From Aquisalimonas lutea (lineage in GTDB: Bacteria; Pseudomonadota; Gammaproteobacteria; Nitrococcales; Aquisalimonadaceae): DNA of 64,000 nucleotides. Made by a program: the position numbers and the translations under genes. Of the stretch, positions 8,728 through 20,057 are shown piece by piece; the first letter of the stretch is position 1, and every line of letters starts with the position of its first letter. The notes beneath the pieces are model-generated. The model did no database searches. It was not told the DNA's origin and saw nothing but the letters and a program-made list of their open reading frames with translations. The DNA is taken from positions 926,191 through 990,190 of the forward strand of contig NZ_JAUFPK010000001.1 in assembly GCF_030409225.1 (NCBI RefSeq). Direction: 5' to 3'.

Positions 8728-9681
8728 TCATCGCTGCGCCGGCCCGCCTTCCGGCTCGTCGGTAGCTCCTTTCGGCCGGCGGCCGCGGGCGCCCAGGGTG
8801 GCCAGGTACAGCCCCAGCAGGATCAGCACCGCGCCGACACCGTGATAGCCGTGCAGGCGTTCCCCCAGCAGCGGCAGGGCGAGCGCTGCCGCGAACAGCG
8901 GCATGAGGTACATGAACATGCCCGCGCGGCCGGGCCCGATGACCTGCACGCCGTAGTTCCAGCCGAGATAGGACAGGATCGAGGGAAACACGGCCACGTA
9001 CACCAGCGCCGGGATGTGCCCGGCCCGCGGCGTATAGGTGATGCCCAGGGCGAGCTCCACCAGGTAGCAGGCAAGAATGAACGGCAGCGCCAGGGTAACC
9101 AGCGCCGTCAGCAGCACCAGCGGATGCAGCCCCAGCGGGTGACGGCGCAGCAGCACGGAATAGATCGCCCAGGAGGTGATGGCCAGGAGCATGAGCAGAT
9201 CGCCGGGCGCCAGGCTCAGCGCCGCCAGGCGCTCCAGGGAGCCCTGGGCCACCACGACGATGACGCCGGGCAGCGCGATGCCGAGTCCCAGCGCCTGGCG
9301 ACGGGACAGGGTCTCGGTGGCGGTGAGCCACGCCGTGAGGGCGATGACGATGGGCATGCTCGCGTTGATCAGCGTGATGTTGATGGCCGAGGTGGTCACC
9401 GCGGCGCCGTAGAGCAGCGTGTTGAACAACCCGGCGCTGAGCACCCCGAGTGCTGTGAGCAGGCCCAGGTGCTGGCGGATGGCGGGTAGCGATGGCCGCA
9501 GATGGCGCCAGGACAGGGGCAGGAGCAGTGCCAGGGCCGCGACCCAGCGCCAGAACGACAGGGCCACCGGCGGGATCTCGCCGACCACCCCGCGGCCCAG
9601 TACGGCATTGCCGGCCCAGAAGAGCACGGCGGCGGTGAGTGCGCCACAGGCGAGGAGTTCGCGACGCTGATTGCGGGTCAC
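8728..9681 (-). CDS. DMT-family (EamA) exporter
   Basis: 317 aa built from two EamA repeats of five helices, ten membrane segments in all. The first helix has the family motif FWAGNAVLGRGV, and the second repeat includes WAIYSVLLRR and SYLGWNYGVQVIGPGRA. Such proteins usually export metabolites or amino acids; the substrate here is not predictable. A charged C-terminal tail (RGRRPKGATDE) faces the cytoplasm. It sits alone between a convergent NAD kinase and a divergent peptidase. Confidence 0.85.
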   Translation of the reverse strand: MTRNQRRELLACGALTAAVLFWAGNAVLGRGVVGEIPPVALSFWRWVAALALLLPLSWRHLRPSLPAIRQHLGLLTALGVLSAGLFNTLLYGAAVTTSAINITLINASMPIVIALTAWLTATETLSRRQALGLGIALPGVIVVVAQGSLERLAALSLAPGDLLMLLAITSWAIYSVLLRRHPLGLHPLVLLTALVTLALPFILACYLVELALGITYTPRAGHIPALVYVAVFPSILSYLGWNYGVQVIGPGRAGMFMYLMPLFAAALALPLLGERLHGYHGVGAVLILLGLYLATLGARGRRPKGATDEPEGGPAQR

Positions 9682-9860
9682 TGTGCTGTCGACTCTGCCG
9701 TTGGGTTGCGGGTGGAACCGGCGAGCCTACAGGGTACCGCGGTGGGTCGTCACGCGCGTCGCGGGTGGGACCCGTGCCTCACAGCGCTCGAGGAATCTGT
9801 CAGACTAGGGCGGGATTTGACACGCGGTCCACGACGAAGGCAACGGAAACCAAGAGCACT

Positions 9861-11117
9861 ATGAGCGAATCGAACCAGCCCTGGACCCGGCCCATGCCGG
9901 AGAAGCAGTTCAATCTCATGCGCGAGATCCTGGCGGCGCCGAGCCCCATCGGGCTCGAGGGCGCCATGACCTACGGGGTGCTGAAGCCCTACTTCGACAC
10001 CTTTGCGCCCGAGGACTGGCACGTGCACCAGTTCAAGGGCCACGCGGGGATTGTCCTGGATACCCACCCGGGGCGGGACGACCTGTTCAAGGTGATGATC
10101 ATCGGCCACGCCGACAAGATCCGCCTGCAGGTGCGCAGCATCGGCGACGACGGCAAGATCTGGATCAACAGCGACTCCTTCCTGCCCACCACGCTCATCG
10201 GCCACGAGGTGAAGCTCTTCAGCGAGGACCCGGACCATCCGGGCAGCTATCGCGTCATCGAGGGCGGCACCGTCGAGGCCCTGGGCGCGATCCACTTCGC
10301 CGACAACGCGGTGCGCACCGGGGAGAAGGGCGTGAAGAAGGAGCAGCTCTACCTGGAGCTGCAGATCCACGGCGAGAACAAGAAGCAGCAGGTGGAGAAC
10401 CTGGGCGTGCGCCCGGGCGACGCCATCATCCTCGATCGGCCCATCCGCCGCGGCTTCAGCCCGGACACGTTCTACGGCGCCTACCTGGACAACGGCCTGG
10501 GCTGCTTCGCCACGGCGGAGGTGGCGCGGCTCATCGCCGAGGCGGGTGGCACGAAGCAGGTGCGCGTGCTCTTCGCCATGGCCACCTATGAAGAGATCGG
10601 CCGTCTGGGCAGCCGCGTGCTCGCCGGCGAGCTCAAGCCGGATGCGCTCATCGGCGTGGACGTCAACCACGACTACGTGGCCGCGCCCGGGGTGGGCGAC
10701 CGGCGGCTGCCGCCGCTGGAGATGGGCAAGGGCTTCACCATGTCCGTGGGGGCGATCGCCAGCGAGCAGCTCAACCGCGTCATCGAGAGCACGGCCCGGG
10801 AGCACGACATTCCCCTGCAGCGCGACGTGGTCGGGCCGGACACGGGCACCGACGGCATGGCCGGGGTGCTGGCCAGCGTCGACTGCGCCGCCACGTCCAT
10901 CGGCTTCCCCATCCGCAACATGCACACCATCTCGGAGACGGGGAACACCTCCGATCTGCTGGCGGCCGTGCATGCCCTGACCTATGCCGTGCAGGCCCTG
11001 GATGCGCTGCCCGATCCCCACCGGGAGTTCCTGGACAACCACCCGCGGCTGGACCGCGCGGGGACGCTGGCCCACCAGGGGTCGGCGAAGCCCGACGACG
11101 AGGAGAAGAAGGCATGA
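9861..11117 (+). CDS. M42-family metallo-aminopeptidase
   Basis: 418-aa co-catalytic metallopeptidase of the M42 (TET aminopeptidase / FrvX) family. The expected ligands are all there: His in IIGHADKIR, bridging Asp in YLDNGLGC, catalytic and metal Glu pair in TYEEIGRLGSR, Asp in IGVDVNHDY and His in IRNMHTISE. The usual HxDEIG reads HADKIR, a small departure beside the metal His. Such enzymes form large self-compartmentalised particles that trim peptides in the cytoplasm. I start at 9861 because upstream codons do not match the family. The last bases overlap the next gene by 4. Confidence 0.85.
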   Translation: MSESNQPWTRPMPEKQFNLMREILAAPSPIGLEGAMTYGVLKPYFDTFAPEDWHVHQFKGHAGIVLDTHPGRDDLFKVMIIGHADKIRLQVRSIGDDGKIWINSDSFLPTTLIGHEVKLFSEDPDHPGSYRVIEGGTVEALGAIHFADNAVRTGEKGVKKEQLYLELQIHGENKKQQVENLGVRPGDAIILDRPIRRGFSPDTFYGAYLDNGLGCFATAEVARLIAEAGGTKQVRVLFAMATYEEIGRLGSRVLAGELKPDALIGVDVNHDYVAAPGVGDRRLPPLEMGKGFTMSVGAIASEQLNRVIESTAREHDIPLQRDVVGPDTGTDGMAGVLASVDCAATSIGFPIRNMHTISETGNTSDLLAAVHALTYAVQALDALPDPHREFLDNHPRLDRAGTLAHQGSAKPDDEEKKA

Positions 11118-11689
11118 GCGGCGAGACCATCAGCCGGTTCCCGGTTCCGGATCTGAACACCGTTCCCGGGGACGTGCGCGAGCGCATTCTGGCGGTTCAG
11201 GAGAAATCGGGCTTCGTGCCCAACGTGTTCCTGGCCCTGGCCCACCGCCCGGACGAGTTCCGGGCGTTCTTCGCCTACCATGATGCGCTCATGGAGTCCG
11301 ACAGCGGGCTGACCAAGGCCGAGCGGGAGATGATCGTGGTGGCGACCTCTGGCGCGAACCACTGCCACTACTGCGTCATCGCCCACGGCGCCATCCTGCG
11401 GATCCGGGCCAAGGATCCGCAGGTGGCCGACCAGGTGGCCATCAACCACCGCAAGGCCAATATCACGGAGCGTCAGCGGGCGATGCTGGACTACGCCCTG
11501 AAGGTGTCACTGCGCTCCAGCGAGATCGACGAGAGCGACCGCGAGACCCTCAAGGCGCACGGGTTCACTGAAGCGGACATCTGGGATATCGGCGCCGTAG
11601 CGGCATTCTTCGCCATGAGCAACCGGCTGGCGAACATGGGCGACATGAAGCCCAACGCCGAGTTCTACGACATGGGGCGGGGTTACTGA
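11114..11689 (+). CDS. AhpD-like peroxidase-related protein
   Basis: 191-aa alpha-helical protein of the carboxymuconolactone decarboxylase / AhpD superfamily ('uncharacterised peroxidase-related' subgroup). The redox motif is intact: Cys-x2-Cys followed by His in NHCHYCVIAHGAILR. It would reduce peroxides or be reduced by a thiol partner. It overlaps the upstream peptidase by 4 bases (ATGA), so the two are coupled. Its 3' end overlaps the convergent fur gene by 7 bases. Proximity to Fur fits oxidative and iron stress but is not proof. Confidence 0.85.
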   Translation: MSGETISRFPVPDLNTVPGDVRERILAVQEKSGFVPNVFLALAHRPDEFRAFFAYHDALMESDSGLTKAEREMIVVATSGANHCHYCVIAHGAILRIRAKDPQVADQVAINHRKANITERQRAMLDYALKVSLRSSEIDESDRETLKAHGFTEADIWDIGAVAAFFAMSNRLANMGDMKPNAEFYDMGRGY

Positions 11690-12135
11690 CTCGCCCCGGA
11701 CTCGGCCTCTTCCTGGTCGCAGCGCCGCAGACAGTTGGCGTACAGGACCAGGCTGTACTCGCGCAGGTCGAACTCCCGTTGCTGGGCGATGCGCTTCTGG
11801 CGGTCCTCGATGACGTCGTCGACGAATTCCTCGACCTTGCCGCACTGGACGCACACGATGTGGTCGTGGTGGCCGCCGTCGGCCAGCTCGAAGCGTGCCT
11901 GCCCGCCCTCGAAGTGGTGGCGCTTCACCAGGCCGGCGGATTCGAAGTGCGACAGCACCCGGTACACCGTCGCCAGGCTGAAGTCGGAGCCGGCGTCGGA
12001 CAGGCGCCGGTAGAGCTCTTCCGCGGTCAGGTGGTGGGGCCCGTCTTCCTGCTGCAGCGACTGCAACAGCTCCAGGACGCGGACACGCGGCAGCGTCGTC
12101 TTCAGACCCGCTTTCTTCAACTGAGGATATTCCAT
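11683..12135 (-). CDS. fur: Ferric uptake regulator Fur
   Basis: 150-aa classical Fur repressor. A winged-helix DNA-binding domain (about 1-82, with SLATVYRVLSHFESAGLV) is followed by a dimerisation domain with HHDHIVCVQCGKVEEF. C95 and C98, plus C135 and C139 near the C-terminus, can supply the structural zinc site. With iron it should repress the fhu promoters seen in this window. The gene converges on the AhpD-like gene with a 7-base overlap. Upstream lies a 6-1-6 palindrome (12166-12178) that may be an autoregulatory or paralogue operator. Confidence 0.92.
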   Translation of the reverse strand: MEYPQLKKAGLKTTLPRVRVLELLQSLQQEDGPHHLTAEELYRRLSDAGSDFSLATVYRVLSHFESAGLVKRHHFEGGQARFELADGGHHDHIVCVQCGKVEEFVDDVIEDRQKRIAQQREFDLREYSLVLYANCLRRCDQEEAESGASQ

Positions 12136-12165
12136 AATCCGCCTCCGCCTCGCCGGGATGCAACT

Positions 12166-12178
12166 TAGACTCAGTCTA
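12166..12178. promoter_or_regulatory. Perfect 6-1-6 palindrome upstream of fur
   Basis: TAGACT-C-AGTCTA is a perfect inverted repeat about 31 bases upstream of the fur start. It has the size and spacing of Fur-superfamily boxes (7-1-7 type). The TTAGA...TCTA ends recall the iron-control element bound by Irr more than the GATAAT core of Fur. Because an Irr-like gene ends just upstream, control of fur by Fur itself or by that paralogue is possible. This is inference. Confidence 0.5.
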
Positions 12179-12218
12179 GACCATTTTCATCGCCCTGACG
12201 AGGGGTGCCATGCAATGG

Positions 12219-12668
12219 TCAGCGATTGGCTGCCGGGTCGTGCCCACTGCGCACCCGGACCAGCACTTCCATGCCCTCGATCTCGGTACCCTCGGGCAGC
12301 CCCAGATCGCCCTGGATGGCCAGGCGGCCGGCGGGGATGTCCGACAGTTCCCCGGTATCCATGTTGTAGACATGGTGATGGTCCGAGGTGTTCGAGTCGT
12401 ACAGTGTTCGATCCGGCTCGATCAGCACTTCGTTGATCAGCCCGTAGCGCACGAACAGGTTGAGCGTGTTGTACACCGTCGCCTTGGACACATGACCGTA
12501 CGCGGCGTTCACGCCCTCGAGCACCTGCTCGGCGGAGACGTGCTGCGGGCGCTGGAACAGGAGATGGGCGATGTCGATGCGCTGCTGCGTCGGCTGGATG
12601 CCGAAACGCGTCAGCATTGCCCGCACTTCGCTGCGTTCCACGGGGAATCTGTCGGCACGTTCGTTCAT
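12219..12668 (-). CDS. Cysteine-free Irr/PerR-like Fur-family regulator
   Basis: 149-aa Fur-superfamily regulator, clearly paralogous to the neighbouring fur gene. The DNA-binding half has GIQPTQQRIDIAHLLF and KATVYNTLNLFVRYGLI; the second half has SDHHHVYNMDTGELSDI, very like the HHH segment of rhizobial Irr. It contains no cysteine at all, so the structural zinc site of Fur and PerR is absent, as in Irr. Irr proteins respond to haem and iron and are mostly alphaproteobacterial. The ATG at 12668 has no Shine-Dalgarno sequence, but TGGTATGCT, an extended -10, ends about 6 bases before it, so a leaderless transcript is possible. Irr-like or PerR-like function is inferred. Confidence 0.8.
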   Translation of the reverse strand: MNERADRFPVERSEVRAMLTRFGIQPTQQRIDIAHLLFQRPQHVSAEQVLEGVNAAYGHVSKATVYNTLNLFVRYGLINEVLIEPDRTLYDSNTSDHHHVYNMDTGELSDIPAGRLAIQGDLGLPEGTEIEGMEVLVRVRSGHDPAANR

Positions 12669-12874
12669 ACCGGGAGCATACCATTGTCGTACGCCGGTGG
12701 CGCAATCGTCGCCGGGTATGCGTGCACACCGCCGGGCCCGGAAGCCGCCGGGCGTTGGGCGCTGCCCTGCCGACGGTGCTTTTCTCCGTCCCGCATAGCC
12801 GCTACTGTGGCAGCCATCGGTGGCGCCGCATGCCCCCGGTCGTAACAGCCCGAATCCGAGGATCATGCAACCCG

Positions 12875-15397
12875 ATGCGAACATTGCGGCATCGTCTCGC
12901 CCGTGCCCTGGTACTCGCCTTCCCCGGGATGGCACTGGCCGGCTCGCTCGGTGGCCCGGGCGGGGCCGCCCTGGCCGCCGACGACAATCCCCCGGATGTG
13001 GGCGACCGTCGCGGGGCCCTGGTCGACGAGGTGGTGTTCACGCAGGAATCGGACGTGGGCAAGGTGGCCGGGCTGATCGAGCGCGGCTCGTACCATGTGT
13101 TCGCCCAGGGGGTCACCAATACCACCGTCTATCATCGGCTGCGTGACTCGGACGAGGTCGGCTACGAGCAGGCCTACGGGACCTCCACCGAGCTCACGCT
13201 GAACCCGGCCGGGCCGGAGTTCGCCAACGGCCGGCTGAACCCGTTCGCCGTGCGCGACATCCGCGAGGCGATGAACTGGCTCGTCAACCGCCGCTACGTC
13301 GCCGAGGAGATCTACGGCGGCCTGGCGGTGCCCCGCTTCCTGCCCATCAACACCGCCTTCCCGGACTACGCCCGCCTGGCCGATACCGCCCGGGCGCTGG
13401 AGATCGAGTACGGCCACAACCCGGAGCGGGCGAGCCGGGTCATTCGCGAGAAAATGCAGGCGCTGGGGGCCAGCCGCGACAACGGCACGTGGCACTACGA
13501 CGGCCGGCCGGTGGAGCTGACCATCCTCATCCGTACCGAGGACGCCCGCAAGCGGGTCGGCGACTACGTCGCCAATCTGCTGGAGGATCAGGGGTTCCGG
13601 GTGCGGCGCCAGTATCGGACGGCCGGCGAGGCCTCGCGCATCTGGATCGGCACCGATCCCAACGCCGGCGAGTGGCACATCTATACCGGCAGCTGGGTGT
13701 CCACGGTGGTCAACCGGGACGTCGCCTCCAACCTCAGCTACTACTATACGCCCCGGGGCCGCCCCGACCCCTTGTGGCAGGCATACGATCCGGTCCCCGA
13801 GCTGGACCGGATCGCCGAGCGCCTGCAGCGCCGCGACTACGACACCACCGAGGAGCGCCGGGAGCTCATGGCCCGGGGCATGGAGCTCGCCATGGAGGAC
13901 TCGGCCCGGGTCTGGCTGGTGGACCAGACCAACGTCATTCCCCGCTCCGACGACGTCGCCCTGGCTGCGGACCTCGCCGGCGGCATCGCCGGCTCCCGGC
14001 TCTGGCCGTATACCCTGCGTTTCCGTGACCGGCTCGGGGGCCAGGTCATCTTCGCCGCCCCCAGCCTGCTCACCGAGCCCTGGAATCCCGTGGCGGGCAG
14101 CAACTGGCTGTTCGACACCATGATCACCCGCTCCCTGAGCGACACGCCGGTTATGCCGGACCCGTTCACCGGGCTGTACTGGCCCCAGCGCATCGACAGC
14201 GCCGAGGTCACGGTGCAGGAGGACGTCCCCGTGACGCGCACCCTGGACTGGCTGAGCGTCGAGCGCGTGCCGGAGATCACGGTGCCGGAGGATACCTGGA
14301 TCGACTGGGACACCGAGCGCGGGCGGTTCATCACCGTCGGCGAGAAGCACCCCGACGGCATGACGGCGCGCACGCGCACCCGCGTCCGCTATGAGAACGG
14401 CTACCTGGATCGTCGCTGGCACGACGGCAGCCGGGTATCCATGGCCGACCTGGTGCTGCCCTGGATCCTGACGTTCGCGCGGGCCGACGAGAGCAGCAGC
14501 CTGTTCGACGGCAGCTATCTGCCGGTGTTCGAGGTCTTCCAGCGCCATTTCCGGGGCTGGCGCATCGTCGGCACCGATCCGCTGGTCGTCGAGATCTACA
14601 GCGACCAGATCTACCCGGATGCGGAGACCATTGTCGCCCAGCGGGCGCCGTCGGTGGAGCCGTGGCATACCCTGGCCCTGGGGATCATGGCCGAGCGCAG
14701 CGACGAGCTGGCGTTCTCCGCGGACAAGGCGGACCGCAAGAGAATCCCCTGGATGAGCATGATCTCCGGTCCGAGCCTGGACGTGCTGGAGCGCAAGCTC
14801 GGCAGGGCCCGGGAGCACGGGTTCGTCCCCTATGCCGGGGTGCTCGAGCGCTACCTGCGTGCGGACGAGATCAGCCACCGCTACCAGGCCCTGGCCGACT
14901 GGTACGCCGGGCAGGGCCACTTCTGGGTGGGGGACGGGCCGTTCTACCTGGACGAGGTCCATCCGGTGGAGCGCACCGTGGTCCTGCGGCGCTACGAGGA
15001 CTTCCCGGATCCGGCCGACAAGTGGCTGCGGTTCACCCAGCCCCGCATCCCGGAGGTGCGGCTGGACGGGCCGATGATGGTGCAGATGGGCTCCGGGGCC
15101 CGGTTCGACCTGACGATCACGTTCCAGGGCGAGCCCTACGGCCGGGAAGCCATCAAGGAGGTCCAGTACCTGCTGTTCGACGGTGAGGGGGACCTGGTCC
15201 ACCAGGGGCGGGCGGCCCCCGCATCGGGGGGACGCTGGCGCATCGCCCTGGACGCCGGGCAGCTCGATGCGCTGGGTACCGGTGCCAACAGCCTGGAGGT
15301 GGCCGTGACATCCACGGACGTGGCGCTGCCCACCTTCGCCTCCCACGCCTTCGCCACCGTGCCGCCGGGCACCATGACCCTGGAGGAGACACCGTGA
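12875..15397 (+). CDS. ABC transporter family-5 binding protein, circularly permuted
   Basis: 840-aa exported binding protein; signal peptide about residues 1-35. Motifs of the SBP_bac_5 fold appear in swapped order. The usual second half comes first: a Leu-rich GSYHVFAQG segment near 62-79, DIREAMNWLVNRRYVAEEI at 128-146, NPERASRVIREKMQALG at 182-198 and a GW-like segment near 270. The usual mature N-terminus then starts at about 388 (GGQVIFAAPS...PWNPVAG), followed by WHDGSRVSMADLV at 515-527 and GDGPFYLDEVHPVERTVVL near 686-704. A beta-rich C-terminal domain (about 725-835) is extra. First gene of an overlapping importer operon. Ligand unknown; peptide-like or nickel-like by family. Confidence 0.8.
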   Translation: MRTLRHRLARALVLAFPGMALAGSLGGPGGAALAADDNPPDVGDRRGALVDEVVFTQESDVGKVAGLIERGSYHVFAQGVTNTTVYHRLRDSDEVGYEQAYGTSTELTLNPAGPEFANGRLNPFAVRDIREAMNWLVNRRYVAEEIYGGLAVPRFLPINTAFPDYARLADTARALEIEYGHNPERASRVIREKMQALGASRDNGTWHYDGRPVELTILIRTEDARKRVGDYVANLLEDQGFRVRRQYRTAGEASRIWIGTDPNAGEWHIYTGSWVSTVVNRDVASNLSYYYTPRGRPDPLWQAYDPVPELDRIAERLQRRDYDTTEERRELMARGMELAMEDSARVWLVDQTNVIPRSDDVALAADLAGGIAGSRLWPYTLRFRDRLGGQVIFAAPSLLTEPWNPVAGSNWLFDTMITRSLSDTPVMPDPFTGLYWPQRIDSAEVTVQEDVPVTRTLDWLSVERVPEITVPEDTWIDWDTERGRFITVGEKHPDGMTARTRTRVRYENGYLDRRWHDGSRVSMADLVLPWILTFARADESSSLFDGSYLPVFEVFQRHFRGWRIVGTDPLVVEIYSDQIYPDAETIVAQRAPSVEPWHTLALGIMAERSDELAFSADKADRKRIPWMSMISGPSLDVLERKLGRAREHGFVPYAGVLERYLRADEISHRYQALADWYAGQGHFWVGDGPFYLDEVHPVERTVVLRRYEDFPDPADKWLRFTQPRIPEVRLDGPMMVQMGSGARFDLTITFQGEPYGREAIKEVQYLLFDGEGDLVHQGRAAPASGGRWRIALDAGQLDALGTGANSLEVAVTSTDVALPTFASHAFATVPPGTMTLEETP

Positions 15398-16518
15398 GCA
15401 CCGCCCCGGGCGTCGCTTCGCCGTCGCGGGCCGGCTCGCTCCGGGATCTGCGCCGGATCGCCGCGTTCACCGCCAGGCGCCTGGTGGCGCTGTTCCTCAC
15501 CGTCATGGTCGGGGTCTACCTGACCATCGTGATCGCCAACATGGGCGGCGAGGTGGACGAGCTGCGCAAGCTCCAGATCCGCTCCACCGTCGCCGAGCAG
15601 GTCCGCGCCGACCCGGCGTTCGCCGACATGCCCGCCGAGGAGCGCAACGAGCTCATCCAGCGCCGGGTACAGCAGCAGATCGAGCGGCGGCGCCTGGATG
15701 AGCCGTTCATCCTGCGCAGCATCGACTACCTGCAGCAGGCGGCGGTACTGGATCTGGGGCGTGCCGAGGAGATGCACAGCGACCGCGGCTCCCGGGAGGT
15801 GTACCGGATCATCGTCGAGCGGCTGCCGGCCACGCTGCTGCTGTTCGGCACCGCCAACCTGCTGGTGTTCTTCGTCTCCGTGTTCGCGGCGCTGCGGCTG
15901 TCGCGCCACTACGGCAGCATCAGCGACCGGGCGGTGATCGCCCTGGCGCCCAGCTCCGCCGCGCCGGGCTGGTTCTACGGCATCTTCCTGATCCTGATCT
16001 TCGCGTTCATCGTGCCGGTGCTGCCCGCCGGTGGCATGGTCGACGTGCCGCCCCCGGACGGCGCCTGGGCCTACGCCGTGAGCGTGCTGCGGCACATGGT
16101 CCTGCCGGTGGCGGCCATGTTCATCTCGTCCATCTTCATCTCCATCTATTCCTGGCGCACGTTCTTTCTCATCCATTCCAGCGAGGACTACGTGGAGATG
16201 GCCCGGGCCAAGGGCCTGCCGGCCGGGATGATCGAGCGCCGCTACATCCTGCGGCCGACGCTGTCGCCGATCATCACCAGCTTCGCCCTGATGCTCATCG
16301 GCCTGTGGAGCGGCGCGATCATCCTGGAGCAGGTGTTCAACTGGCCGGGGCTGGGCACGCTGCTGTTCCAGGCCATCGGTCACCGGGATACGCCGGTGAT
16401 CATCGGCTCGGTGGTGATCTTCGCCTACCTCCTGGCGCTGACGGTGTTCCTGCTGGATATCCTCTACGCCATTCTCGATCCGCGGGTGCGGGTGGGCATC
16501 GAGGGGGACAACCAATGA
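15394..16518 (+). CDS. ABC importer permease, DppB-like
   Basis: 374-aa inner-membrane permease of the peptide/nickel (DppB/OppB) family. The first helix (about 30-50) is followed by a long periplasmic helical segment rich in Arg and Glu, then five membrane helices. The cytoplasmic coupling loop EMARAKGLPAGMIERRYILR is the EAA motif that contacts the ATPases, and PGLGTLLFQAI near the C-terminus is typical. GTG start, overlapping the stop of the binding-protein gene by 4 bases; its own stop overlaps the next permease by 4, so translation is coupled throughout. Confidence 0.88.
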   Translation: MSTAPGVASPSRAGSLRDLRRIAAFTARRLVALFLTVMVGVYLTIVIANMGGEVDELRKLQIRSTVAEQVRADPAFADMPAEERNELIQRRVQQQIERRRLDEPFILRSIDYLQQAAVLDLGRAEEMHSDRGSREVYRIIVERLPATLLLFGTANLLVFFVSVFAALRLSRHYGSISDRAVIALAPSSAAPGWFYGIFLILIFAFIVPVLPAGGMVDVPPPDGAWAYAVSVLRHMVLPVAAMFISSIFISIYSWRTFFLIHSSEDYVEMARAKGLPAGMIERRYILRPTLSPIITSFALMLIGLWSGAIILEQVFNWPGLGTLLFQAIGHRDTPVIIGSVVIFAYLLALTVFLLDILYAILDPRVRVGIEGDNQ

Positions 16519-17846
16519 GGCGCTGGCTGGAGGGGTTGCGGGAGCTGCGCCGGTATCCGTCGGCCATCGGCGGGCTGGCGCTGATCGTGTTCCTGATCGC
16601 CGTGTCCGTGTACACGGTGATCGCCATTCCGTACTCCCAGGCCCTGGAGCTGTGGCGGGGCGGCGAGGCATGGCGCATGCACCCCGTGAACGCCGGCCCG
16701 GTGTGGGTGGATCGGCTGCTGGGCGGCGACAAGCCCGATACCACGGTGGTCCGAAGCGAGGACGCCGAGACGCGCTCGGCCGCCTTCGACGGCGGCCGCC
16801 AGGTGCGCATCCCGCTGTCCTTCGACTACCCCCATGACGACTTCCCCAGCGAGATCAACCTGTTCCTGGAGACCCGCGATACCGAGCGCGAGGCCTTCGT
16901 ACGCCTGCGCTGGCAGACCCCAGACGGTGACATCATCCCCCTCGGTGGCCGGCGCGTCGCCCGGGAAGACCGGATCTCCATCTCCCAGAACCAGACCCTG
17001 GAGGGGCGCCTTGGTATGCCGCCCCACGTGGGACTGTTCGCCCGCTCCACCGACGCCGGGCAGCCCGTTCCGGACAACGGCCGCTACCGGCTCATCATCG
17101 ACGCCATCCTGTTCGGCGAGGACGCCTCCCTGGAGGCCGACCTGGTCGTCTACGGCCGGGTCCACGGCATTGCCGGCACCGACCACCAGCGCCGCGATCT
17201 CATGGTGGCGCTGCTCTGGGGCACGCCGGTGGCGCTCGCCTTCGGGCTGCTGGCGGCGGTGGGCACCACGGTGACCACCCTGGTCATCGCCGCCACCGGC
17301 GTGTGGTTCGGCGGCCTGGTGGACGCGACCATCCAGCGCCTCACCGAGGTCAATATCATCCTCCCGGTGCTGCCCGTGCTGGTCATGGTGGGCACGCTGT
17401 ATTCCACCAACATCTGGCTGATGCTGGGGGTGGTGATTGCCCTGGGCATCTTCAGCGCCGGCATCAAGATGTACCGCGCCATGCTGCTGCCCATCCGGCA
17501 GGCACCGTACATCGAGGCGGCCCGGGCCTACGGCGCCGGCAACGCGCGCATCATCCTGCGCTACATGATCCCCCGGATCCTGCCGGTGCTCATCCCGACG
17601 TTCGTGACGCTCATCCCCACCTACGTCTTTCTGGAGGCGTCGCTGGCGGTGCTGGGGCTGGGCGACCCGGTGCTGCCCACCTGGGGCAAGGTGCTCAACG
17701 ACGCCCAGACGCAGAGCGCGCTGTACAACGGCTTCTACTACTGGGTGATCGCGCCGGCGCTGCTGCTCATGCTCACGGGCCTCGGCTTCGCCATGTTCGG
17801 CTTCGCCCTGGACCGGGTATTCAATCCGCGGCTGAGGACACAGTAA
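16515..17846 (+). CDS. ABC importer permease, DppC-like with large periplasmic insert
   Basis: 443-aa second permease. After the first helix (about 17-38) there is an extracytoplasmic domain of roughly 170 residues (about 42-212), mostly beta-like by composition, before the family's GTD..RRD motif at 221-227 (usually GTDelGRD and much closer to helix 1). The remaining five helices, the coupling loop EAARAYGAGNARIILRYMIPR and the VFLEASLAVLGLGDP segment are normal for DppC/OppC. The insert could dock the unusual binding protein. Overlaps the previous gene by 4 bases; the next gene starts 2 bases after its stop. Confidence 0.85.
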   Translation: MRRWLEGLRELRRYPSAIGGLALIVFLIAVSVYTVIAIPYSQALELWRGGEAWRMHPVNAGPVWVDRLLGGDKPDTTVVRSEDAETRSAAFDGGRQVRIPLSFDYPHDDFPSEINLFLETRDTEREAFVRLRWQTPDGDIIPLGGRRVAREDRISISQNQTLEGRLGMPPHVGLFARSTDAGQPVPDNGRYRLIIDAILFGEDASLEADLVVYGRVHGIAGTDHQRRDLMVALLWGTPVALAFGLLAAVGTTVTTLVIAATGVWFGGLVDATIQRLTEVNIILPVLPVLVMVGTLYSTNIWLMLGVVIALGIFSAGIKMYRAMLLPIRQAPYIEAARAYGAGNARIILRYMIPRILPVLIPTFVTLIPTYVFLEASLAVLGLGDPVLPTWGKVLNDAQTQSALYNGFYYWVIAPALLLMLTGLGFAMFGFALDRVFNPRLRTQ

Positions 17847-17848
17847 CC

Positions 17849-18841
17849 ATGGCGGCGAGACCGTTGCTCCGGGTTGAGGACCTCCAGCTCCACTACCGCA
17901 CCCGCCGCGGGATCGCGCGCGCCGTGGACGGCGTGAGCTTCGATATCCGCGCCAACGAGGCCCTGGTGGTGCTGGGCGAGTCGGGCTGCGGCAAGAGCTC
18001 CCTGGCCAAGGCGCTGCTGCGGATCCTGCCGCGCAACGTCCACAGCTTCCGCGGCCAGGTCATGCTCGGCGATACGGATGTCATGGCCCTGGGCGACGAG
18101 GCCTTCCGCCGGGACGTGCAGTGGACCCGGGTCGCCATGGTCATGCAGGCGGCGATGAACGCGCTCAACCCGGTGGTCCGGGTCGGCGAGCAGGTGGCCG
18201 AGCCCCTGCGGGTGCACGCGGGGTGGTCCCGCGAGCGTGCGCGGGAACGGGTGGTGCGCACCTTCGAGCAGGTGGGGGTGGCCACGGATTTCCTGCAGCG
18301 CTACCCGTTCGAGCTCTCCGGCGGCATGCGCCAGCGGGTGGTCCTGGCCATGGCCCTGGTGACCGAGCCGGAGCTGGTGATCCTGGACGAGCCCACCTCC
18401 GCCCTGGATGTGCTCACCCAGGCCAGCATCATGAACGTGCTCAAGCGCATCAAGCGCGAGCAGGGCACCAGCTTCATGCTCATTACCCACGACGTGGCCA
18501 CCTCCAGCGAGATCGCCGACCGCGTGGCGCTGATGTACGCCGGGCAGATGGTGGAAGTGGCGGATGCCGACGCGTTCTTCCACGAGCCCGCGCACCCGTA
18601 CTCGCAGATGCTCATGGCCAGCGTGCCGCGGCTGCGCCAGCAGACGGAGCCGGCCCCCATCCCCGGGCAGCCGCCGGAGCTCATCGAGCCGCCGGCGGGG
18701 TGCCGCTTTGCCGACCGCTGCCCGCGACGCTTCGACCGCTGTGCCCGGGAGCCGGAGCCGCTGCGGGTCGGCGAGCGGCATCACGTGCGCTGCTGGCTGC
18801 ATGCGGGCAGCGGCGGCGCCGGCGGAGGAGGTCGGGCATGA
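17849..18841 (+). CDS. ABC importer ATPase, DppD-like
   Basis: 330-aa ATP-binding subunit. Walker A is GESGCGKSS at about 43-51, the signature is LSGGMRQRV near 157, and Walker B is VILDEPTSALD. The C-terminal oligopeptide-transporter extension contains the cysteine cluster CRFADRCPRRFDRC that is typical of DppD/OppD and in some members binds an iron-sulfur cluster. It pairs with the following ATPase as a heterodimer. The ATG at 17849 lies 2 bases after the permease stop, and its 3' end overlaps the next gene by 4 bases. Confidence 0.9.
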   Translation: MAARPLLRVEDLQLHYRTRRGIARAVDGVSFDIRANEALVVLGESGCGKSSLAKALLRILPRNVHSFRGQVMLGDTDVMALGDEAFRRDVQWTRVAMVMQAAMNALNPVVRVGEQVAEPLRVHAGWSRERARERVVRTFEQVGVATDFLQRYPFELSGGMRQRVVLAMALVTEPELVILDEPTSALDVLTQASIMNVLKRIKREQGTSFMLITHDVATSSEIADRVALMYAGQMVEVADADAFFHEPAHPYSQMLMASVPRLRQQTEPAPIPGQPPELIEPPAGCRFADRCPRRFDRCAREPEPLRVGERHHVRCWLHAGSGGAGGGGRA

Positions 18842-19848
18842 GCACCGAACGGGCAGCGAGTGCTGAATCCACGAGTCCCCTGGTCTCCGTGCGGGATCTG
18901 CGCACCTGGTTCGAGCTGCGCCAGTGGGGGTTCCTGCGCGTCGGCTCCGTGCGCGCGGTGGACGGGGTGAGCTTCGATCTCGGACGCGGCGAGTCGGTGG
19001 CCTTCGTCGGCGAGTCCGGCTGCGGCAAGAGCTCCCTGGCGCGCACCCTCCTGGGGCTGCACCGGCCCACCGGCGGCGAGGTCTCGTTCGACGGCTACCG
19101 TGTCCAGGATCTCGCCGGCAGGGATCTCCAGTGGTACCGCGCCAGCGTCGGCTACGTGCAGCAGGACCCCTACGGCGCCCTGCCGCCGTTCATGGACGTG
19201 CGGCGCATTCTTGCCGAGCCCCTGGTGGTTCACGGCGTGACCGACCGCGCCGAGCGCGAGCGGCGGATCCGCCGGGCCCTGGAGGAGGTGCGCCTGGGGC
19301 CGGGGGACGCCATCCTGGACCAGTTTCCGCACATGCTCAGCGGCGGCCAGCAGCAGCGGGTGGTCATCGCCCGCGCCCTGGTGCTGGAGCCGGCGATGAT
19401 CATCGCCGACGAGCCGGTGTCCATGCTGGATGCCTCGGTGCGGGTGGAAATCCTCAACCTGCTGCGGCGGATCCAGTCCGAGCGCTCCCTGACGCTGGCC
19501 TTCATCACCCACGACCTGTCCACGGTCCGCCACTACGCCGATCGCATCTTCGTCATGTATGCCGGCCGCATTGTCGAGCAGGCGCAGGTGGACGAGCTGC
19601 TGGAGCACCCCCAGCATCCCTACACCCAGGCGCTGCTGGCGGCCATCGCCGACGTGGACGCGGCCAACGCCCGCCGCGTGCGGGATGTGCCCGCCGGGGA
19701 GCCGCCGAGCCTGCTGCACCCGCCGCCGGGCTGCCGTTTCCATCCGCGCTGCCCGCATGCCATGGCGGGGACCTGCGATGTCCGCGATCCCGGCATGTTC
19801 GAGCCCCGCCGGGATCACCTGTCGGCGTGCTGGCTCCACGAGCGCTGA
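18838..19848 (+). CDS. ABC importer ATPase, DppF-like
   Basis: 336-aa partner ATPase. Walker A is GESGCGKSS at about 58-66, the signature is LSGGQQQRV near 167, and Walker B is MIIADEPVSMLD. The C-terminal extension GCRFHPRCPHAMAGTC again carries the cysteine motif of the oligopeptide ATPase family. The stretch FELRQWGFLRVGSVRAVDGVS at the N-terminus is the usual A-loop region. It overlaps DppD-like by 4 bases, so the two subunits should be made in equal amounts. Confidence 0.9.
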   Translation: MSTERAASAESTSPLVSVRDLRTWFELRQWGFLRVGSVRAVDGVSFDLGRGESVAFVGESGCGKSSLARTLLGLHRPTGGEVSFDGYRVQDLAGRDLQWYRASVGYVQQDPYGALPPFMDVRRILAEPLVVHGVTDRAERERRIRRALEEVRLGPGDAILDQFPHMLSGGQQQRVVIARALVLEPAMIIADEPVSMLDASVRVEILNLLRRIQSERSLTLAFITHDLSTVRHYADRIFVMYAGRIVEQAQVDELLEHPQHPYTQALLAAIADVDAANARRVRDVPAGEPPSLLHPPPGCRFHPRCPHAMAGTCDVRDPGMFEPRRDHLSACWLHER

Positions 19849-19865
19849 CCGGGAGGAGCGGTTCC

Positions 19866-20057
19866 ATGGTGCCGGCGATACTGCGCATCGGCCTCGGTGC
19901 CGGGGTCATGCTGGCCGCCCTGGCCGCGCTGCTGGCGATGGTCTCCGGCGCCCTGGCGGTGAGCCTTGTCCTCTCCCTGGCCGCCTACACGGGACTGTTC
20001 GCGGGCATGTTCATTGCCGTCGCCGGAATCCTGCGGCTGGCGCAGCGGCGCCGGTAG
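19866..20057 (+). CDS. Small two-helix membrane protein closing the ABC operon
   Basis: 63 aa, almost entirely two hydrophobic helices (about 4-27 and 30-56) separated by a short turn, ending in RLAQRRR, which should lie in the cytoplasm. A strong GGGAGGAG ribosome site lies 7 bases upstream, and the gene starts 17 bases after the last ATPase, so it is part of the ABC operon. I do not recognise a family. It may be an accessory or stabilising subunit of the importer, or unrelated. GC-rich composition alone could produce a hydrophobic frame, but the ribosome site and spacing support a gene. Confidence 0.65.
   Translation: MVPAILRIGLGAGVMLAALAALLAMVSGALAVSLVLSLAAYTGLFAGMFIAVAGILRLAQRRR

Follow-up and report, generated by a model that had tools for sequence, protein, structure and literature searches.

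The 64,000-nucleotide stretch of Aquisalimonas lutea DNA analyzed here (the window) encodes a family-5 ABC substrate-binding protein, P0001, in which the motifs that normally open the chain follow those that normally close it. The locus raises the question of whether this order is a natural circular permutation and whether the product still serves a transporter. We present here a comparative analysis of the gene, its relatives, and its operon, and we give a probability of about 0.88 to the reading that P0001 is a circularly permuted substrate-binding protein of an Opp/Dpp-type peptide ABC importer. The gene and its parts are as follows.

12875..15397, + strand: whole permuted family-5 ABC substrate-binding protein P0001, 840 amino acids (open reading frame; SBP_bac_5 score of 57.6 bits against a cut-off of 32.4; relatives)
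12875..13003, + strand: residues 1-43, N-terminal hydrophobic segment and variable linker (hydrophobicity; mean major-residue frequency of 0.36)
13004..14029, + strand: residues 44-385, old C-half of a family-5 binding protein (Pfam profile positions 146-361; 7fi3 residues 402-584; canonical SBP profile)
13958..14104, + strand: residues 362-410, old C-end fused to old N-end (frequency of 0.84, gap fraction of 0.00)
14030..15046, + strand: residues 386-724, old N-half with GGQV, WHDGSRVSMADLV, and GDGPFYL (7fi3 residues 66-310; un-permuted colinear match; model matches to family-5 binding proteins)
15047..15388, + strand: residues 725-838, Ig-like beta domain (predicted strands; Foldseek; without a family match)

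The open frame of P0001 is intact, and the ORF, strand, and coordinates agree with those of an earlier note on this DNA. The opening SBP_bac_5 motifs, which that note had placed only from residue 388 on, were found there (GGQV at 388-391, WHDGSRVSMADLV at 515-527, and GDGPFYL at 686-692). The closing motifs DIREAMNWLVNRR (128-140) and NPERASRVIREK (182-193) lie in the first half, as it had also claimed, with the limits of that half better set at 44-385. The extra beta-rich domain that it described at the C-terminal end is located at residues 725-838 and has predicted Ig-like strands.

The order of the halves was determined against 7fi3, the solved OppA protein of the archaeon Thermococcus kodakaraensis (chain A, 732 amino acids), and against family profiles. 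In single-sequence PDB searches, P0001 residues 121-292 align with 7fi3_A 402-584 (5.5e-17) and residues 465-714 with 7fi3_A 66-310 (1.7e-7); a family profile returns the same protein in two pieces at 1.5e-23 and 1.1e-13. Neither protein shows any overlap between the two pieces, which come in exchanged order. Pfam SBP_bac_5 covers only profile positions 146-361 on native P0001, at residues 48-289, with a score above the gathering score, and the old C-half matches positions 275-502 of 519 in a canonical SBP profile (iE, 1.6e-19). Judged against 7fi3 and the canonical profiles, P0001 departs from the canonical linear order, in which the N-half precedes the C-half, and it is therefore filed as a permuted family-5 variant. 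The similarity to canonical proteins is unequal, being strong for the C-half and weak for the N-half, which stands at a distance from the bacterial canonical proteins and has 7fi3 as its principal anchor. Residues 386-461, the first 75 of the old N-half, matched neither 7fi3 nor canonical proteins significantly in sequence and resemble the usual family-5 start (GG.V..A.PS..TEPWNP) by eye only. Chimeric queries directed at 7fi3 1-62 and beyond 585 gave no extension. PknB and nanobody matches in the PDB searches were set aside as weak chance matches.

The halves were also re-joined in silico in the canonical order, as residues 386-724 followed by 44-385, for five members and without the Ig-like domain. 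This construct gives a single alignment to 7fi3 63-584 (522 residues, 135.5 bits) that takes in 7fi3 311-399, the gap between the two native pieces. The native pieces sum to 85.8 + 53.2 = 139.0 bits, with no rise in score for the construct; un-permuting improves contiguity and coverage against 7fi3, not summed bits. Against SBP_bac_5, the un-permuted construct covers 28-361 of 368 positions at 69.2 bits, compared with 146-361 at 57.6 bits for the native chain. Re-joined in the canonical order, the protein thus forms one colinear alignment with a homologue, and in its native order it does not, as expected of a circular permutation. Profile-profile comparison of all rotations with E. coli DppA, haloarchaeal, rhizobial, Deinococcus-Thermus, and Rhodococcus proteins and 7fi3 gave scores of 192.8 for the canonical rotation and 156.6 for the native order, the score being ~193 wherever the cut fell within residues 364-504. 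This gain is contributed by the final portion of the N-half (the GPFYL region) together with the point at which the C-half is attached to it. It disappears when the N-half is shuffled (20 column-shuffled N-halves, 156.4-158.4), and a reversed N-half scores 156.6.

The fused old ends (362-410) contain no linker, insertion, or indel in 34 sequences, with a mean major-residue frequency of 0.84, compared with 0.36 for the variable N-terminal anchor and linker. This conserved, linker-free join fits one closed fold. Together with the exchanged match to 7fi3 and the single colinear match after un-permuting, it supports the circular permutation proposed in the earlier note, as judged at the level of sequence. 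AF2 models of full P0001 (pLDDT, 55.7) and of the two lobes of one relative without the Ig-like domain (pLDDT, 55.6) are below 50 in the join region; confidence is low because only 12 similar rows were usable. Foldseek searches with the Ig-less model returned 7fi3 first (E value, 9.1e-10; 327 columns), with YntA, NikA, and AppA next in rank, an outcome that supports family-5 identity for the well-modelled part, as distinct from a whole-chain superposition.

Every relative found has the same order of halves; the relatives share 55-79% identity, all belong to the Gammaproteobacteria, and include named members from Aquisalimonas, Halospina, Halovibrio, Vreelandella, Thioalkalivibrio, Halomonadaceae, and Alcanivorax. 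The permuted order is present in all 12 loci from a genome collection (12/12) and in 27 of 54 genomes of the host's own order, with further cases in a class sample (5 genomes) and a phylum sample (2 genomes); single-contig genomes are among those with this order. These named groups are largely salt-loving. No relatives were found in viral contigs. Close relatives in the canonical order were sought by tblastn of plasmids, with none at 1e-5 and only distant canonical proteins at high E values, and in samples of Pseudomonadota, where at most two candidates per genome were scored, with no close relative and only two short, weak matches.

The P0001 gene heads an operon with two Opp-type permeases and two oligo_HPY ATPases, as follows.

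15394..16518, + strand: OppB-type permease (BPD_transp_1, 1.1e-27; best NCBIfam model Opp4B, below cut-off; linked in relatives)
16515..17846, + strand: OppC-type permease that carries a long insertion ahead of the permease domain (BPD_transp_1 at 258-441 of 443; kept in relatives)
17849..18841, + strand: OppD-type ATPase (ABC_tran and oligo_HPY)
18838..19848, + strand: OppF-type ATPase (ABC_tran and oligo_HPY)

P0001 is thus encoded with permeases and ATPases of the Opp/Dpp type. Among relatives, OppB follows the permuted gene in nearly all loci that are long enough, and OppC, OppD, and OppF follow where the locus reaches. At locus L035 (84-1124 and 1576-3972), OppB is instead upstream of the permuted gene on the opposite strand. 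The insertion in the OppC-type permease (16515-17846, + strand) adds ~150-200 residues, is conserved in relatives, and is uncovered by NCBIfam OppC models. P0001 is the only SBP_bac_5 protein over threshold in the host genome, which leaves the permeases with no obvious other partner. Two adjacent Fur-family regulators, at 11683-12135 and 12219-12935 (both − strand), are divergent from the binding-protein gene; one is a ferric uptake regulator over the NCBIfam cut-off, and the other is closest to Irr/PerR but below cut-off. An M42-family aminopeptidase (9639-11117, + strand) upstream of the transporter could process imported peptides. The Fur-type regulators and the M42 peptidase are found upstream in own-genus loci only.

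The first hydrophobic stretch of 18 residues averages >2 on the Kyte-Doolittle scale in most relatives; neither a cleavage site nor a lipobox is obvious there, and the variable linker comes next. A few relatives, e.g., L048 and L036, have a cleavable-looking N terminus. From this hydrophobicity profile, an uncleaved N-terminal membrane anchor, and with it tethering, is predicted for most members. The segment of P0001 itself is weaker and possibly cleavable; this protein may be tethered. At the other end, residues 725-838 form beta strands in the AF2 model (pLDDT mostly 80-90), with Foldseek matches to macroglobulin, CARDB, and Ig domains; no Pfam family was found at 1e-3, and no PDB family was assigned. 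A "Flagellin hook IN motif" match consists of four repeats of ~10-12 bits each and was not taken as homology. The domain (15047-15388, + strand) is well conserved among the permuted proteins.

Other explanations of the exchanged order and of the function were weighed against these data. The protein could be a fusion of a C-half-like and an N-half-like module, drawn from different proteins and acting as two domains that together make no complete bilobed fold. The unequal similarity of the halves to canonical proteins and the low confidence of the complete AF2 model point that way, and the authors who described the permuted Treponema pallidum protein TpMglB-2 also allowed another gene as the source of its permuted part (PMC4990184). 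However, the two halves both lead to 7fi3, where they cover complementary stretches that do not overlap, the re-joined halves align in one pass with 7fi3 311-399 included, and the join, unlike the N-terminal linker, is conserved without linker or indels, so we consider such a fusion unlikely. Scrambling of a canonical gene by an assembly, frameshift, or annotation artefact has a negligible probability: no supporting point was found, the frame is intact, and the same order recurs at 55-79% identity in many independent assemblies, single-contig genomes included. Dozens of related bacteria carry the same swapped gene at the head of the same operon, so the arrangement is natural and stable rather than an error.

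It is very improbable that the permuted protein has left transport to become a sensor or membrane-bound scaffold. Such a role would suit the N-terminal anchor of most relatives and the additional Ig-like domain, but OppB and OppC almost always come immediately after the gene, with OppD-OppF next in loci that extend far enough, and the genome holds no other SBP_bac_5 protein over threshold to partner the permeases.

We therefore return to the permuted transport receptor. Its ligands are likely peptides, on indirect evidence: 7fi3 was solved with an endogenous pentapeptide (PDB title), the permeases score best with oligopeptide models (all NCBIfam permease models being below cut-off), and the M42 aminopeptidase is encoded upstream in the own genus. 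The counterpart in P0001 of the amine-anchoring Asp408 of DppA is uncertain; an invariant NRD (280-282) is close by. In the proposed rearrangement, the old N- and C-ends were fused directly, and the new ends opened in the loop between the N-half "GPF.L...V.LRR" strand and the C-half "LVDEVVF" strand, with a hydrophobic anchor at the new N-end and the Ig-like domain at the new C-end. The chain most likely still forms one bilobed, Venus-flytrap-like fold, whose lobes would enclose a ligand, probably a peptide, on the outer side of the inner membrane and pass it to OppB-OppC, with OppD-OppF as the drive.

This order may have arisen by tandem duplication and trimming. No tandem repeats that could represent a scar were found in 12000-20000. 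Since 7fi3 has no Ig-like domain between its halves, either the new C-end acquired this domain or an unseen ancestor carried it between the halves. If it did lie there, a trimmed tandem N-Ig-C pair would yield exactly the present order. In a domain search for such an ancestor, the hits were limited to permuted members and to weak segments of other proteins, most of them very long.

Both halves of P0001 are homologous to 7fi3, a large family-5 peptide-binding protein and its nearest solved relative by sequence and by predicted fold. The halves of 7fi3, in contrast, are in canonical order and leave no room between them for an Ig-like domain, since 7fi3 311-399 is matched by the start of the old C-half. 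With the SBP_bac_5 (cluster C) proteins DppA, NikA, OppA, and AppA, P0001 shares the Pfam match above cut-off, the C-half motifs, and an operon that combines two BPD_transp_1 permeases with two oligo_HPY ATPases. The permuted proteins differ from these in their exchanged halves, added Ig-like domain, predicted membrane anchoring in most members, and length (~840 residues, compared with 520-610 in the canonical proteins examined). A more speculative proposal, which we hold as possible but rather doubtful, is that they form an inner-membrane-tethered cluster C lineage in which new ends near the lobe crossover moved the anchor and the Ig-like domain to a new face and altered docking on OppB-OppC (OppC having its long insertion), under selection in salt-loving bacteria.

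No permuted family-5 binding protein was described in the literature searched, in which subscription journals were little covered. Among ABC binding proteins, natural permutation is a rarity in that literature, with one case, from a different structural cluster: TpMglB-2 (Tp0684) of T. pallidum, in which the first three N-lobe strands have moved to the C terminus, glucose binding is retained, and homologues are probably tethered (PMC4990184). Domain models match only half of proteins such as P0001, which are thus hidden in annotation. The family described here keeps its permuted order and its transporter across many genera, and with natural proteins on both sides, the effect of permutation on ligand binding, tethering, and permease docking can be addressed. 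Like P0001, TpMglB-2 is a natural permutation of an ABC binding protein; it has, however, the type I (cluster B) sugar-binding fold of an unrelated family. P0001 has no detected homology to MglB or type I binding proteins, SBP_bac_5 being the only family above its Pfam cut-off, and in P0001 an entire half of a cluster C protein has moved.
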